Positions 26,251-33,034 of a DNA stretch of 37,002 nucleotides are shown one piece after another. The notes below the pieces were generated by a model. It was given only the letters and a program-made list of their open reading frames with translations, did not search any database and was not told the DNA's origin. The DNA comes from Bacteroidales bacterium. Its GTDB lineage: Bacteria; Bacteroidota; Bacteroidia; Bacteroidales; GWF2-38-335. Where the stretch lies: positions 1 to 37,002 of the forward strand of contig JAFGXD010000089.1 of assembly GCA_016936815.1 (NCBI GenBank), written 5' to 3'. The translations under genes were made by a program, and so were the position numbers. Every line of letters begins with the position of its first letter. The first letter of the stretch is position 1.

Positions 26251-26290
26251 TAAAAATATAGGCTATCTAATATTAGGTAGCCTTTTTTTA
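26251..26290. terminator. Bidirectional terminator ending the ribosomal superoperon
   Basis: Stem 26260-26270 pairs with 26273-26283 (AGGCTATCTAA/TTAGGTAGCCT, one G-T pair), in practice with a loop of about 4-6 nt, followed by a T-run at 26283-26289. The mirror A/T runs make it work for the opposing sulfotransferase gene too: its stop codon (26288-26290) lies inside the T-run. Confidence 0.9.
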
Positions 26291-27235
26291 TTTAGTCCAA
26301 GACGATAAATCTTTATTTATTAATACTGATGTTTCTTTTATTTCAGTTTCAAATATTCTTAATAAAAAATCTCGGTCTTCCTTTTTCATTTCCATTTTGC
26401 CTGCATTTTTGTATAGAGCCGATTTTAACTTCTCTTTACTTCCCGATGGTAACATTTTAGTTGAAAGGTTTTTAATACCGCTATGCACAAAAAATTTATT
26501 CAGTGTTCTAAATCTTGGTACTTTTGCGGAATTTTGAACTTCGGAATTCTTTACGGTATAGCCTTTAACATTTAGAAATTCGAAGGTTTTTCCCAAGCTG
26601 CCTTCTAGGTTGTTTTTCAATTCCTCAAACAACAAAACAAGCACATTTTCTTTTCCAAATACTTCATAGTATCTGCTTATTTGTTGGCTATATTGACCAA
26701 GTTCAATAAAAAGCTCAGATATTCCCCATCCTTTTTTTATTGCATTAATATCTTTATTAATTGCTTCATTGAAATTAAGACTTGTATATCCGTATCGTAA
26801 AGCCATTAAGTAGTGCGAATAGGCTCTTTCTATAGGGTTTCTAATGGTTATTAATATTTTTGCCTTTGGATTATATTCGAAAATATTCCCGGCAGCTTCG
26901 TTTGAAAACAAATAGGAAGTGCTACACTCTCCAATAATTTTTTCCTCTTTGGCATCTTCAAATAAGAGATTGTAATATTCCTCCTCTCTTACAAATGATA
27001 ATTGAAGTTTATTTAGAGGCTTAACTGAAAAATATTTCTTATAATCAAGTTGATTGTTTTTACGATAAGTATCAGAAAATAATTCAGGATTAATATCTGT
27101 TGAAAAGAAATTGGGTTCTTTTAATGGACTTAAATATATTTCAGGATGTTGGTTTAAATAGTAATACAATGAGGTAGTTCCTGCCTTTGCAGCTCCAACA
27201 ACAAAAAAATTTGGTTTTCTTATGGCATCTTTCAT
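26288..27235 (-). CDS. PAPS-dependent sulfotransferase family protein
   Basis: 315 residues. The N-terminal 5'-phosphosulfate-binding loop VVGAAKAGTTSLYYYLNQHP (Lys17) and the 3'-phosphate-binding segment ITIRNPIERAYSHYLMALRY (Arg132, Ser140) define the Sulfotransfer_1/heparan-sulfotransferase-like fold. No signal peptide or membrane helix, so it is probably cytoplasmic. It would transfer sulfate from PAPS to a hydroxyl or amine, plausibly on a glycan or lipid; the acceptor is unknown. Its ATG overlaps the stop of a flippase-like remnant by 4 nt (ATGA), so it once followed, or still follows, a flippase gene. This fits a surface-polysaccharide setting, by inference. Confidence 0.9.
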   Translation of the reverse strand: MKDAIRKPNFFVVGAAKAGTTSLYYYLNQHPEIYLSPLKEPNFFSTDINPELFSDTYRKNNQLDYKKYFSVKPLNKLQLSFVREEEYYNLLFEDAKEEKIIGECSTSYLFSNEAAGNIFEYNPKAKILITIRNPIERAYSHYLMALRYGYTSLNFNEAINKDINAIKKGWGISELFIELGQYSQQISRYYEVFGKENVLVLLFEELKNNLEGSLGKTFEFLNVKGYTVKNSEVQNSAKVPRFRTLNKFFVHSGIKNLSTKMLPSGSKEKLKSALYKNAGKMEMKKEDRDFLLRIFETEIKETSVLINKDLSSWTK

Positions 27236-27405
27236 TTACGTATTTTAACCTTAATGGGATAAGTTAAAAAGCCAAATTTACGATAAATGAACCAAACTGC
27301 AAGCATGTAAAATAGAATTGTTGTGAAACCATTGTCTAATGTTGCTTCATATTTCAAGTTTTTGGTTTTGAGCATCTCAAAAATAATATTTGCTTGTAGT
27401 ACCAT
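27232..27405 (-). pseudogene. Short ORF carrying a duplicated flippase C-terminus (remnant)
   Basis: A minus-strand frame of 57 codons opens with ATG at 27405 and ends with TGA at 27234-27232, overlapping the sulfotransferase ATG by 4 nt. Residues 26-57 (GFTTILFYMLAVWFIYRKFG, then FLTYPIKVKIRK) closely match the last residues of the intact flippase at 29779-31134 (GFTTILWNGLAVWFIYLKFG, then FLTYPFNVRLRKGIK). About 32 of 34 bases agree between 27270-27303 and 29827-29860. The first 25 residues (MVLQANIIFEMLKTKNLKYE, then ATLDN) do not match the flippase. Most likely a 3'-end remnant of a second flippase after a deletion; a working short protein is possible. Confidence 0.75.
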
Positions 27406-27408
27406 CGA

Positions 27409-27589
27409 ATGAAAGTTTTTTCTTCTATTGCAAGGGTTTTTGAATAGAGTATGGAAGATGTGTTAGTACAGCCAGAACGTAGGTGCAAGATGTTCAATTT
27501 CAGGAGATTTTTCAAAAAACGATTTGAAGGTTATGCAAGCTTTGCTTAATTCCGATGAATTGCCACTCGATATAGAATTATTGGATTAG
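27409..27589 (+). pseudogene. Decayed small gene of about 60 codons, family unknown
   Basis: On the plus strand, ATG at 27409 opens MKVFSSIARVFE and meets a TAG at 27445. The same frame resumes with SMEDVLVQPERRCKMFNF. From about 27510 a second frame continues SGDFSKNDLKVMQALLNSDE and LPLDIELLD, stopping at TAG 27587-27589, 16 nt before a strong terminator. One in-frame stop plus one frameshift are needed to join the parts. The reading is tentative; I recognise no family. Its start overlaps the 5' end of the minus-strand flippase remnant. The 482-nt stretch 27406-27887 holds only this, the terminator and the broken ORF after it. Confidence 0.4.
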
Positions 27590-27605: not shown

Positions 27606-27636
27606 AACGCCATACGGATTTTCTGTATGGCGTTTT
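27606..27636 (+). terminator. Orphan plus-strand terminator
   Basis: A perfect 10-bp stem (27606-27615 with 27625-27634, AACGCCATAC/GTATGGCGTT) and 9-nt loop, followed by TTTT. It only works for plus-strand transcripts, yet no intact plus-strand gene precedes it; the decayed gene ending at 27589 is the best owner. Confidence 0.85.
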
Positions 27637-27689: not shown

Positions 27690-27885
27690 ATGAAGACGAA
27701 AATTATTTTTTTTTACGATACTATTTTTTGGATTTTTAAATTTTTTTGTCCACGCTCAGAACGAAGAAATGAACGGTTTTATTGATATTGGAATAATTTC
27801 AATAAATTATGTAGCAAATGGAGAGGAGGATAGTTTACTCAGCTTTTGCAGAACCTGCGAATTACAAAAAACATATATTGAATAA
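27690..27885 (+). pseudogene. Frameshifted small secreted protein (9-T run in the signal peptide)
   Basis: ATG at 27690 gives MKTKIIFF and then runs into a T9 tract (27706-27714), after which that frame has no plausible sequence. Removing one T joins it to a frame that reads TILFFGFLNFFVHAQ, completing a classic signal peptide, then NEEMNGFIDIGIISINYVAN and GEEDSLLSFCRTCELQKTYI, ending at TAA 27883-27885. The intact product would have 64 residues with a CRTC motif. The downstream frame has no start codon of its own. It could be a pseudogene, a homopolymer phase switch or an assembly error. The lipoprotein ATG follows 2 nt later. Confidence 0.6.
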
Positions 27886-27887
27886 TC

Positions 27888-28601
27888 ATGACAAATACTA
27901 AAATAATTGCTGCGCTATTGGCCTTAAATATGCTTTTTTCCTGTTCAAGTAGTAATAGAGAGAACGGTTCTGAAAAGTCACAAGAGGATACCATTCCTTC
28001 TCAAAAGTTGGAGGCAGATTTTTTGGCTGGAAATAAATTTGATTTCACTGTAAAAGATTTGTTCAAAAATGAAAATAGCGATATTGTGAATCCAATTGCA
28101 GTAGAAGATTTTGAATTGGCACTAAAAAAAATTGACCATTATTGGACAAAAGATTCGACTGCTCTTACCGAAACTCAAAAAGCGAGTATGAGATATATGA
28201 AAATATATGCTTTTGCAGGTCTAGTCTACCAGGGAAAGAAAACCCATGAAGAAATGAAAAACTTGGTTGAGTCTTTTGAAAATCAATTCTTAATAACTCA
28301 GCATCTTGAAATAACTGAGGGCAACGATATGCCGTTTAATCAGATTCAAGTTGAACAGGAAAATGACAGCATTATTGGAATAAGCTGTGCTAATAATGAT
28401 GGAGTGAACATTCATTGCTTTGTAAATGTTAGTATTGGGAATTATGACTTGCTACCAAATGTAGGCAAAAGAGCATATTTGGGTGGTAAGCTAAGTTCCT
28501 TTGAAGTGAGTGATGATGAGGTTTTTAGCTGGATAATTGGTTTAAAACTGACTGAAGGTTTTATTAAGTTTTTGGAAGATGAATTTGAACATGTAGAGTA
28601 A
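27888..28601 (+). CDS. Lipoprotein of unknown function
   Basis: 237 residues. The signal peptide MTNTKIIAALLALNMLFSC ends in a lipobox with Cys19, followed by a Ser/Asn/Glu-rich linker (SSSNRENGSEKSQEDT). The rest is acidic and soluble, with an alpha-helical middle (TALTETQKASMRYMKIYAFA, then GLVYQGKKTHEEMKNLVESF) and a beta-rich end (IGISCANNDGVNIHCFVNVS). No family recognised. It begins 2 nt after the stop of the frameshifted secreted ORF, so its expression may depend on translation through that ORF. It converges with the T9SS-sorted gene. Confidence 0.75.
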   Translation: MTNTKIIAALLALNMLFSCSSSNRENGSEKSQEDTIPSQKLEADFLAGNKFDFTVKDLFKNENSDIVNPIAVEDFELALKKIDHYWTKDSTALTETQKASMRYMKIYAFAGLVYQGKKTHEEMKNLVESFENQFLITQHLEITEGNDMPFNQIQVEQENDSIIGISCANNDGVNIHCFVNVSIGNYDLLPNVGKRAYLGGKLSSFEVSDDEVFSWIIGLKLTEGFIKFLEDEFEHVE

Positions 28602-28639: not shown

Positions 28640-29650
28640 TTAGTTGCGGATAAATTTCTTTACAACAAGTTGGGTATTGTTATCAAGAATCCTTAAAAAA
28701 TAAACGCCCTTATTCAAATCTTTAACAAAAATAGGGCTATTGTTTTCGCAAACTCCGGTTCTTAAAATTTCTCCCAATACATTTGTAATATGATAATTAA
28801 ATATATCAAAATTTGTTTCAGGAATAATATATTCGTCAGTAGGGTTGGGGTATAGGTTTATGGCGGATATTTTGTTCATTTGTTTTCTTTCTGTAATCAT
28901 ACAGTTTGTTGGTGGTGGAATTTGGTCGCCACCTGTAATATAGTCTACAGTTCCCCAATATTGTACCGAGCAGTCTTCAAACACCTTAAATTTAAAGGTG
29001 CGTGAGCTTGTGCAACCTGAGGGGCAGTCACCAAAACCTACAACAAAATCATAGTATCTGTCGTTTCCAATTTTTTCATAATTTATTTCATTTCCATCTC
29101 CGTAATAGGGGCTTATTTCAGCATAAACAACTCCCTCAATTTCGCTTATTAACAGGCAAAGTGCTTTAGTGTTAATGTTTTGTTCAGTTTCAAGTGTTAC
29201 AACATCATAAGCGCTCCAATAATTGGTAACGGTAAAACCATATTGTGTTGTAAGGTTGTCAATATCAGGGTTTCCTGTATGCGTTTCTAAACTTGCCCAA
29301 GGACTTGTCCAAGGATATGAAGGATCAACTCTTATAAAGATTGTATTATAAACATGGTAGCAAACATATTGATGTATACAATAAAAATCAAATACGGAAT
29401 CTCTTTCAGGGATGCCTGTAACATTGAAAATAGCAGCTAATCCTTCCCAAATTGTATCTTGATAATTTTGAGGAATCTCAATACTATCTGAATATGGAGA
29501 GTCTTGTGCAAAAATTCTTTTAGATGCAATTTCTTTCACATCCTTGTCGTAGTATGCCTGTAAAACGGATGGAAGTTCGCATGATGAGGAGATTTGGGCT
29601 TGTGTTGTAAGAAATCCAATACAAAAAGAGATTAGTAGAAAAGTCTTCAT
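28640..29650 (-). CDS. Secreted protein with T9SS type-A C-terminal sorting domain
   Basis: 336 residues. Signal peptide MKTFLLISFCIGFLTTQAQ; a central domain of about 220 residues with several Cys and no family I recognise; then a C-terminal domain from about residue 265. INLYPNPTDEYI is the classic start of a Por-secretion-system sorting domain, followed by NYHITNVLGEILRTG and GVYFLRILDNNTQLVVKKFI. The protein should cross the outer membrane by the type IX system and be released or anchored on the surface. No T9SS components are in this window. The 128-nt gap to the upstream flippase holds nothing recognisable. Confidence 0.88.
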   Translation of the reverse strand: MKTFLLISFCIGFLTTQAQISSSCELPSVLQAYYDKDVKEIASKRIFAQDSPYSDSIEIPQNYQDTIWEGLAAIFNVTGIPERDSVFDFYCIHQYVCYHVYNTIFIRVDPSYPWTSPWASLETHTGNPDIDNLTTQYGFTVTNYWSAYDVVTLETEQNINTKALCLLISEIEGVVYAEISPYYGDGNEINYEKIGNDRYYDFVVGFGDCPSGCTSSRTFKFKVFEDCSVQYWGTVDYITGGDQIPPPTNCMITERKQMNKISAINLYPNPTDEYIIPETNFDIFNYHITNVLGEILRTGVCENNSPIFVKDLNKGVYFLRILDNNTQLVVKKFIRN

Positions 29651-29778: not shown

Positions 29779-31134
29779 TTATTTTATTCCTTTTCTCAAC
29801 CTAACATTAAAAGGATATGTCAAGAAGCCAAATTTGAGATAAATGAACCAAACTGCAAGGCCGTTCCATAAAATTGTAGTAAAACCTGTTGCTATTGCTG
29901 CTCCAAGTATTCCATATTCAGGAATTAATATGAAATTTAATACAATGTTTAGTAAGGTGCTGATGGTTAAAATATTTCTGGCGATTATCTCTTTTCCTGC
30001 CATCTTTAAGATATGGATTGTGGAACCGGAGATTGCACTAAAGAATTGTGCTCCTGCTAGTATTAGTAGGGCATCGCGACCGGTTTCGAATTCGCTTCCG
30101 AAAATTCCAAGCATAAATTCCGGAAAAATAAATATTACAAGCAAAATTGGAAGTGAAATAATGAAAATTAGTAAAGTGGTTTGTTTCACAAAATTCTTAA
30201 ACAAGGCACTGTCTTTTCTTTCATAAAGTTCAGCATATTTTGGCATTGCTATGCTGTTAACTGCTACAAGAACAATGGAATTTAGTGCTGCAATTTTTAT
30301 TGCTGTGTTGTAAATTCCTACTTCGGCTTCGGGCTTAAATGCACTTAACATTAATATGTCTGTCCAGCTCATTATTAAAAATAGTGAGTTAGAAAGCAAC
30401 ATTGGCAAGGTTGTTTTAAGAATTTCTCTGTTTGTAAATGGCAATTCTCCAATATAGGCTTTTTGGTTATTTCCCTTTCTCTCAAAGGTTTTCTTTATAA
30501 ATAAAAAACTTATTGGAAGAAGCAAAACTAATCCAATTCCTAAAGAATATACTGAATGGTTAATTGTGGTTTCCGATTTTTCGAAAAGGTAGAAAACACC
30601 TATAATTACTAGTGTTGCTATGTAAACCGTTCCATTCTGAAATATTGAAAACCCCGAAATATTCTTCAATCCCTTTAGTGCTTCGGCATTGTAATTTATT
30701 AACGATAAGGGTATTATGGAAATCGCTACAATTATTATAAGATAGTTGAACTCGGTTGTTTCGAAAAAAAGTTTAGAAAGGGGTTCAGAAAGTAACATTA
30801 GAAGGCCGGTAACAACTATTCCGGTTAATGTTATCCATAAAACTCCTTTTTTGTAAATTTTTGGTATCAGACTAAATTTTTTCTGACTGTAAAAACTGGC
30901 TATATATTTTACTATAGATGTGTCGAACCCCAGCTTTGCTATAACTACGTTTACCATTAATATTGTCCATAAACTCGAGAAAACCCCTACTCCTTGAGCT
31001 CCGTAAAGCATCGCCAAAACCCAGAAAAACAAATATCCTATAAAAACCCCCGATAATTTAAAAATAAGAGCTACAAAACTACCTCTTAGTAATTCAAATA
31101 AATGTCTGTCTCCTATGGCTTTAACAAGATTCAA
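29779..31134 (-). CDS. Polysaccharide flippase, Wzx/MATE-like (MviN/MOP superfamily)
   Basis: 451 residues with about 12-14 transmembrane helices. N-terminal LLRGSFVALIFKLSGVFIGY and FFWVLAMLYGAQGVGVFSSL match polysaccharide-synthesis family proteins; a loop around FASFYSQKKF-like KYIASFYSQKKFSLIPKIYK follows. Such proteins flip lipid-linked sugars across the inner membrane. Ends LRKGIK, with a near-copy of this end at 27232-27335 next to the sulfotransferase. It starts 12 nt after the ubiD stop, so it is probably cotranscribed with it. No glycosyltransferases or Wzy are present, so the sugar substrate is unknown. Confidence 0.9.
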   Translation of the reverse strand: MNLVKAIGDRHLFELLRGSFVALIFKLSGVFIGYLFFWVLAMLYGAQGVGVFSSLWTILMVNVVIAKLGFDTSIVKYIASFYSQKKFSLIPKIYKKGVLWITLTGIVVTGLLMLLSEPLSKLFFETTEFNYLIIIVAISIIPLSLINYNAEALKGLKNISGFSIFQNGTVYIATLVIIGVFYLFEKSETTINHSVYSLGIGLVLLLPISFLFIKKTFERKGNNQKAYIGELPFTNREILKTTLPMLLSNSLFLIMSWTDILMLSAFKPEAEVGIYNTAIKIAALNSIVLVAVNSIAMPKYAELYERKDSALFKNFVKQTTLLIFIISLPILLVIFIFPEFMLGIFGSEFETGRDALLILAGAQFFSAISGSTIHILKMAGKEIIARNILTISTLLNIVLNFILIPEYGILGAAIATGFTTILWNGLAVWFIYLKFGFLTYPFNVRLRKGIK

Positions 31135-31146
31135 AATTTTTAAATT

Positions 31147-33021
31147 TTAGTCAATTATTTCTTTTTTACCTTTAATAAGACTCTTGTATTTTAAAGAAGG
31201 TGAATTAATTTTTTCACCAATTTCATATTTCTCCCATTTTTCATCAACAAGCTCAATTGTTTTTTCATCCATTGCCAAGACATTTGGCCATTGTCTGTTA
31301 AAATTCTTATTTCCTATTTTTCTTCTACCATCTATAACAAGCAGTTCATTATTCAAATCTTTGTAAACAAAACTATCTCTTACAGGGTCGGTATTGCCGG
31401 TCAAAATCCATGTGAAAAGTTTAAAATCACTTATGTCGACTTGCGAGTTGCAGAAAAACAGGAATTTTATAGTGCCATTTGTTCCCTGCATTATTTTTTC
31501 GGTTATTTCTTTCAAATCTTTTTTTGTTTCATCATTAAGCGAAATAATTAAAACGGGAATTCCTTCTTCAACTAAATTGCTGTTTATGGAATTAATTTCC
31601 GGAATGTTTTCTTTTAAGTTTGAAAGGCTGTTTACATCTAAAGGAATTATTTCATTAGTTTTGCTTCCTGTGCCGTCAATTCCCATTTTACCGCCAAAGG
31701 CAAATTCTGAAGATGCATGATCGAGAACATCAAGAGGACCTTCACTTAAGATAATGTCTTTGTTGATGTTTATGCTGTTCGCTAAATGCTTTGCAACTTG
31801 TTTATAATCATTAATATCAATGTTTTCAGGCAGAACCAGTAGAAATTTATTAAACATCATTTGTCCTGCTCCCCAAAGTGTGTTAATTACTTTTCTGGCA
31901 TGGCCGGGGAATTCGGGATTAAGTTTTACTATTGCTATGTTATGGGCCACTCCTTCGAAAGGTAGATTCATATCGAGAAGTTCCGGCAACATTGTAAGTT
32001 GTATTGGAGCCAAAAATATTCTTTCTGTAGCTTTTCCAATCCAAGCATCTTCCTGAGGTGGTATTCCGACAATTGTGGTCGGGTAAACGGCATTTTTTCT
32101 ATGGGTAATGCATGTTACATGAAATTTTGGGTAAAAATCTGCCAGTGAATAAAACCCTGTATGATCTCCAAAAGGACCTTCCAGAATGTAATCTTCAAGA
32201 GTATCTACATAGCCTTCAATTATTATTTCAGCATCTGCAGGAACTTCAATATCCTGACTAATACATTTTACCAATTCAACTTTTTTCTTTCTAAGAAAAC
32301 CTGCCAGTAGGTATTCATCAACCGAATCGGGTAGGGGAGCTGTTGCCGAATAGGTGTAAACAGGATCGCCTCCCAATGATACAGCTACAGGCATTTTTCT
32401 TATTCCTTTTTCTTTGAAAAGTCTAAAGTGTTTTGCTCCTGTTTTGTGCATGTGCCAGTGCATTCCGGTTGTTTGTTTGTCGAGAATTTGCATTCGGTAC
32501 ATTCCAACATTTCTTGAACCTGTTTCAGGGTCTTTTGTATGAACGCTTGGCAAGGTAATAAATGGTCCTCCGTCTAAAGGCCAGCAAGTTAATACAGGCA
32601 AAATTGTTAAATCGGGGTTTAAATTAATAACTTCCTGGCATTTACCTTTTCCATTAATGGTTTTTGGCATCCATGAACCAAATTTAGATAGTGAAGGAAG
32701 TAATTTAAGTTTTTCGAAAAGGCTGTTTTTTGGACTTGTAAGGTTTTTAAAAATCGATTTAATTTCCTTCCCCGGCTCATCAAGATTCTTAACGCCAAGA
32801 GCAATACACATTCTTTTTTGAGAGCCATAAGCATTAATCAAAACCGGAAAATCTGTTCCATTATTTTCGAAAAGCAATGCTTTGTTTTGATTTTCTGATT
32901 TGCTAATTCTGTCGGTTATTTCAGTAATTTCCAGATTTGTGCTTACCTTTTCCTTAATTCTGATTAACTCGTTTTCCTTTTCAAGAGTATTTATAAAATC
33001 TCCAAGTCCTTTATGGGCCAT
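31147..33021 (-). CDS. UbiD-family decarboxylase (prFMN-dependent)
   Basis: 624 residues from the ATG at 33021 (MAHKGLGDFINTLEKENELI), which matches the UbiD N-terminus; a start 12 nt further upstream would lie in the leader before it. Visible motifs: SRNVGMYRMQILDKQTTGMH with its Arg, EGPFGDHTGFYSLADFYPKF for metal and prenylated-FMN binding, and IVGIPPQEDAWIGKATERIF. UbiD enzymes reversibly decarboxylate aromatic acids; in Bacteroidota a likely role is menaquinone synthesis, possibly by the futalosine route, but no other mqn or ubiX gene is here. It follows eno across a long hairpin and precedes the flippase by 12 nt. Confidence 0.9.
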   Translation of the reverse strand: MAHKGLGDFINTLEKENELIRIKEKVSTNLEITEITDRISKSENQNKALLFENNGTDFPVLINAYGSQKRMCIALGVKNLDEPGKEIKSIFKNLTSPKNSLFEKLKLLPSLSKFGSWMPKTINGKGKCQEVINLNPDLTILPVLTCWPLDGGPFITLPSVHTKDPETGSRNVGMYRMQILDKQTTGMHWHMHKTGAKHFRLFKEKGIRKMPVAVSLGGDPVYTYSATAPLPDSVDEYLLAGFLRKKKVELVKCISQDIEVPADAEIIIEGYVDTLEDYILEGPFGDHTGFYSLADFYPKFHVTCITHRKNAVYPTTIVGIPPQEDAWIGKATERIFLAPIQLTMLPELLDMNLPFEGVAHNIAIVKLNPEFPGHARKVINTLWGAGQMMFNKFLLVLPENIDINDYKQVAKHLANSININKDIILSEGPLDVLDHASSEFAFGGKMGIDGTGSKTNEIIPLDVNSLSNLKENIPEINSINSNLVEEGIPVLIISLNDETKKDLKEITEKIMQGTNGTIKFLFFCNSQVDISDFKLFTWILTGNTDPVRDSFVYKDLNNELLVIDGRRKIGNKNFNRQWPNVLAMDEKTIELVDEKWEKYEIGEKINSPSLKYKSLIKGKKEIID

Positions 33022-33034
33022 AGTAATAAACATT

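Follow-up and report, generated by a model that had tools for sequence, protein, structure and literature searches.

A flippase gene end joined to a sulfotransferase gene in a Bacteroidales genome: relic of a split operon and candidate promoter

The window (the whole stretch of DNA that was analysed, 37,002 nucleotides, from a Bacteroidales bacterium) carries, in this order, rplQ, a sulfotransferase gene, an insert of approximately 2.4 kb, a flippase gene, a UbiD-like gene and enolase. The outermost two, here as well as in the matching neighbourhood of a relative, are what we take to be rplQ and enolase, having named them by eye from sequence. That relative, Bacteroidetes bacterium GWF2_38_335 (G001; MEOH01000022.1; L041, L046), is the sole other genome of the family that was compared. 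Directly ahead of the sulfotransferase lies a piece of flippase coding sequence, referred to below as the scar. The features on which the argument rests are as follows.

26288-27235, minus strand: sulfotransferase, 315 aa
27232-27235, minus strand: ATGA, in which the stop of the flippase-end ORF overlaps the sulfotransferase start
27232-27405, minus strand: ORF of 57 residues, flippase-like in its 3' part only
27235-27351, minus strand: the scar, corresponding to the last 39 codons of the flippase
27273-27302, minus strand: promoter-like TTG-N19-TAAATTTG (from motif and genome control), with a predicted start near 27268 and a predicted leader of 33 nt
27467-27586, plus strand: 3' scrap of a SecDF-P1-head-like gene, 41% to a GWF2_38_335 protein carrying PF22599 (E 1.2e-4)
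27606-27634, plus strand: strong hairpin after this scrap, terminator-like by eye, not among the terminator-scan predictions
about 27690-27885, plus strand: broken ORF with a signal-peptide-like start, its frame lost near a T run (by eye)
27888-28601, plus strand: lipoprotein-like gene (by eye), 237 aa, no Pfam family, with a 48% relative on another GWF2_38_335 contig
28640-29650, minus strand: T9SS-sorted secreted protein, 336 aa (PF18962, TIGR04183)
29779-31134, minus strand: complete flippase, 451 aa, whose end (29791-29907) is the other copy of the scar sequence
31147-33033, minus strand: UbiD-like decarboxylase (Pfam), syntenic neighbour of the flippase

The sulfotransferase scores above the cut-offs of both PF13469 (53.2 bits, cut-off 27) and PF00685 (50.9 bits, cut-off 22), which assigns it to this family; by sequence match it is akin to the bacterial sulfotransferase 3rnl, its PDB relative (E 3.7e-49 over residues 5-314), and to heparan-sulfate sulfotransferases, with heparan sulfate 3-O-sulfotransferase 3A1 matching over part of its length (E 3.6e-9). 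The complete flippase likewise exceeds the cut-offs of PF01554 (63.7 bits, cut-off 24.9) and PF01943 (49.5 bits, cut-off 28.2), the families of the Wzx/MATE-type polysaccharide flippases, and thus classifies as a flippase of the MATE/PST type; those NCBIfam equivalog models for the superfamily which match it all score far below cut-off. The scar by itself has no match to any Pfam family, nor has the 57-residue ORF as a whole, and domain models do not class the scar as a MATE/PST-type flippase; it is only the end of this ORF that aligns with the flippase HMM (positions 394-446).

What identifies the scar is its likeness to the flippase nearby. A protein search of the whole own genome aligned it with flippase residues 410-448 at 64% amino acid identity (E 4.2e-10), and at the nucleotide level the scar and the flippase end make up a 119-nt direct repeat (27231-27349 versus 29787-29905) that is 74% identical and encloses an exact run of 22 nt, the longest that they share. 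A first-pass annotation had described the last 32 codons as a copy of the intact flippase end 2.5 kb away, and this description holds, with 24 of 32 residues and 73 of 96 bases identical; the 32 matching bases in 34 that it gave for the best stretch come close to the 33 of 35 counted on the alignment around the 22-nt run, and the 4-nt overlap of the stop with the sulfotransferase start is present just as it was reported. The left edge of the similarity is abrupt: in ungapped blocks of 60 nt, 45 and 43 bases match inside the scar, falling to 20 and again 20 upstream of approximately 27350. When the 44 codons ahead of GFTT were aligned locally with four flippases, no protein similarity was detected (589 to 1818 of 2000 shuffles scored at least as high).

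What did this locus look like before? In GWF2_38_335 the order rplQ, sulfotransferase, flippase, UbiD and enolase is uninterrupted, and the flippase and the sulfotransferase overlap by 4 nt at an ATGA. Its unit thus shares with the window the two families, their order, the ATGA overlap and the neighbours, the flippases being 58% and the sulfotransferases 54% identical; unlike the window, it has no insert, no second flippase end and no TAAATTTG box. The position held by the 57-residue ORF in the window is occupied in this one other family genome by a full flippase, i.e. the short ORF is not what the relative keeps. Looking for a full flippase directly upstream, as the annotation had recommended, was also informative beyond the family, since this arrangement occurs in 22 of 80 sulfotransferase loci (79 among the best 80 of 170 matches, plus L129), with gaps of -14 to +204 nt and adjacency defined as a flippase match ending no more than about 400 nt upstream of the sulfotransferase; the 58 loci without an adjacent flippase include distant sulfotransferases and loci with a contig end close upstream. 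Among the best 80 of 170 matches, the nine relatives with the best E-values (L046-L054, three of which are GWF2_38_335, G014 and G040 again) all have a flippase directly upstream. G014 shows a 4-nt overlap with a GTG start, or 1 nt with a later ATG, and in G040 the two genes are 4 nt apart. A second flippase match, sought among ORFs of at least 60 aa between stops, was found in the window only, when compared with the 79 sulfotransferase loci among the best 80 of 170 matches and seven flippase loci. We therefore regard it as almost certain that the scar is a flippase 3' end still joined to the sulfotransferase, the relic of a conserved two-gene operon that was split. The lost flippase-sulfotransferase operon postulated at first was thus a real operon, intact in GWF2_38_335; it has not been lost, as was claimed, but split, the full flippase still standing next to UbiD. 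As a whole, the arrangement of the window can be put down to ordinary genome evolution, in which the splitting of an operon left a gene-end scar.

The insert looks like ordinary chromosomal DNA devoid of a recognisable mobile element, judging from its gene content and composition. Its GC content (32%) is similar to that of the flippase (33%) and the sulfotransferase (30%), and neither of its two ORFs matches a recombinase or integrase family in Pfam or NCBIfam. Elsewhere in the own genome, its DNA has a single match of 38 nt, ruling it out as multicopy DNA there. The relatives of its genes in GWF2_38_335 are scattered (C13:99285, C11:156857, C11:81682), which rules out that the insert exists in that genome as one block. 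For the T9SS-sorted protein, the nearest relative among 60 genomes belongs to another family (G047, 47%) and the genus-mate follows with 40%, a hint that transfer or paralogy may have shaped this gene.

The ancestry of the sulfotransferase was considered separately. In trees, the flippase of the window groups with that of GWF2_38_335 (support 99/97), and the sulfotransferase with L047, a MAG labelled Chlorobiota (96/96, and 96/92 after four long rows, L060, L069, L076 and L097, had been dropped). The data do not reject a tree joining the sulfotransferases of the window and GWF2_38_335 (p-AU 0.257). For the remnant, the score is 60 against the L047 flippase, 98 against that of GWF2_38_335 and 132 against that of the window. 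With the joint clade not rejected and the remnant closer to GWF2_38_335 than to L047, a separate origin of the sulfotransferase was discarded.

The two flippase ends of the window differ at 23 bases over the 32 codons, 13 of them at third positions, which translates into a dN of 0.18, a dS of 0.94 and a dN/dS of 0.19 (NG86), bearing in mind that these codons were picked for their similarity, a choice that biases towards apparent constraint. In simulations with 293-360 retained cases per setting, eight or fewer amino acid differences were seen in 0.3-1.3% of cases when the remnant drifted freely and in 10% when it evolved at an omega of 0.5, versus 72%, 25% and 10% when both copies were held at omega 0.1, 0.2 and 0.3, respectively. 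With the remnant at 0.5 or both copies at 0.3, the observed count would thus be nothing out of the ordinary. The third-position count was reached in 6-9% of the free-drift simulations and is thus weaker evidence against free decay. Most of the divergence between the scar and the flippase end thus probably arose while both were coding. Because of this, and because the left edge of the scar is so abrupt, the two ends most likely go back to two forms of the gene, through either a related allele acquired by recombination or a tandem copy of older date; one of the two forms would have been cut at the junction. The closeness of the two ends in the codon resamples given below fits this as well.

How might the sulfotransferase be transcribed today? 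The scar contains the box TAAATTTG, which fits the -7 consensus TAHHTTTG and lies close upstream of the sulfotransferase, 37 nt before its ATG. In PMC6847099, promoters of F. johnsoniae are described as carrying TAHHTTTG 4-5 nt ahead of the start site, followed by a leader of 33 nt on average, and PMC9723704 likewise has flavobacterial start sites sharing the -7 consensus. The candidate site resembles these primary-sigma promoters of Bacteroidota in its box and its predicted 33-nt leader, and differs from them in sitting inside a former coding end. As PMC6847099 credits F. johnsoniae promoters with only a weak -33 motif, the TTG of the scar adds less than is apparent. The motif was spotted after the fact and was then set against a control of 591,140 bases of the own genome (41 stretches, the window included), genes being ORFs of at least 150 aa with an ATG start. 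TTG-N19-20-TAnnTTTG occurs at -120 to -10 of 20 of 318 genes, as against 0.4% expected from 16 gene-body matches, an approximately 16-fold enrichment upstream of genes; among the 196 genes with non-coding upstream DNA, 18 carry it, the sulfotransferase being one of them. Thirteen of these 20 upstream sites lie 10-40 nt from the gene start, the scar site falling at 37. At the corresponding positions, the intact flippase reads CAAATTTG and GWF2_38_335 GAAATTTG, both without the first T of TAAATTTG, and only one of the 22 adjacent pairs (L069) has the motif near its flippase end. A second -7-like box at 27385-27378 lacks a -33 TTG. A scan for E. coli-type promoters was uninformative (15 versus 24.1 expected in shuffles), and the RNA around the sulfotransferase start showed no unusual structure (z -0.02). 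We put the odds slightly above even that the scar now supplies the sulfotransferase with a promoter and leader of its own, the ATGA overlap being a fossil of coupling. The more specific proposal, that a base change in the flippase-end remnant completed TTG-N19-TAAATTTG, which would now drive the orphaned sulfotransferase so that sulfation is controlled apart from export, is offered tentatively, as somewhat short of even odds.

The main rival to this promoter reading is that the 57-residue ORF serves as a working leader ORF, transcribed from further upstream, with ribosomes re-initiating on the sulfotransferase at the ATGA. The overlap is intact, as such coupling would demand, and in two E. coli gene pairs, according to PMC10666635, the terminal 15 nt of the gene ahead were enough for coupling. 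Then again, a promoter would have to lie upstream of 27405, where the minus strand has no TAHHTTTG box between 27405 and 27900, the first part of the ORF bears no similarity to flippases, and the sole other family genome compared has a full flippase in its place; we thus deem the leader ORF unlikely. If the predicted promoter is used, transcription would begin downstream of the start of the 57-residue ORF.

Other rivals concern the origin of the second flippase end. An element, circular or integrative, that brought along a flippase 3' end could have entered the end of the flippase gene, restoring the gene and leaving the old end behind, and the geometry would suit it (one side has a complete gene with its new end, the other the truncated remainder of the old one, and the copies share an exact core of 22 nt), were it not that neither insert ORF resembles a recombinase, that the insert is single-copy apart from its 38-nt match and that it contains gene scraps, which together make such an element improbable. 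Comparably poor prospects attach to the idea that the flippase end was duplicated locally not long ago and that the copy beside the sulfotransferase then decayed freely, the duplication being one that the first-pass annotation had entertained: even though the scar and the window flippase end proved closest to each other in 4860 of 5000 codon resamples that include GWF2_38_335, a dN/dS of 0.19 and the rarity of so few amino acid changes under free decay disfavour it. The genome is a draft of 192 contigs, and both junctions come from one assembly, so that the insert or one junction might be false. A chimera of this kind is nevertheless very improbable, given that the GC contents are alike and the genus contains relatives of the insert genes; moreover, the scar and the flippase end are two distinct sequences, because they share just 22 exact bases and differ at 23 of 96.

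The account that we prefer, to which as a whole we assign a probability of roughly 60%, is that of an operon split leaving a scar that serves as the predicted promoter. Since the intact unit is found in the same neighbourhood in GWF2_38_335, the ancestor would have possessed the flippase and the sulfotransferase as a unit of two genes overlapping by 4 nt at an ATGA. Approximately 2.4 kb of ordinary-looking chromosomal DNA would then have come between the complete flippase and a flippase end of 39 codons, with one of the two flippase versions cut at the junction and its end staying on the sulfotransferase. The UbiD-flippase transcript probably no longer reaches the sulfotransferase, as the opposite-strand gene at 27888-28601 lies between them; since the terminator scan found no minus-strand terminator in that interval, read-through from the flippase is still conceivable. 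The scar, whose -7 box is complete where the aligned sites lack a base, would now serve as promoter and leader of the sulfotransferase, with the ATGA overlap persisting only as a trace of the former coupling.

What is the significance of such a scar? It records the split of an operon and connects a sulfotransferase that would otherwise have no assigned place with a polysaccharide flippase, and this tie supports, at the level of gene association, a sulfated surface polysaccharide as the product to which the enzyme would contribute. The link of the sulfotransferase to polysaccharide export proposed at the outset is supported by the flippase adjacency in relatives and by the G040 pair (L042 7990-13968), which lies beside divergent Wzz-like genes (two, one just above the Pfam cut-off, one below) and a Wzy_C gene, with two glycosyltransferase genes nearby, and thereby favours a connection of flippase-sulfotransferase pairs with polysaccharide assembly; the neighbours of the G014 and GWF2_38_335 pairs are housekeeping-like or unrelated (by eye, with two G014 neighbours scanned). 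If the promoter reading is true, the locus would be a modest but clean example of regulatory DNA derived from the leftover of a coding gene, the Bacteroidota promoter consensus being simple enough to arise from a coding remnant, and this possibility is the one aspect likely to interest specialists. A literature search restricted to narrow terms for flippase or Wzx with sulfotransferase retrieved no account of such a case. Among the relatives, L059, L064, L066, L067, L089, L101 and others have at least two sulfotransferases near one flippase, which suggests that the enzyme has multiplied next to the exporter.
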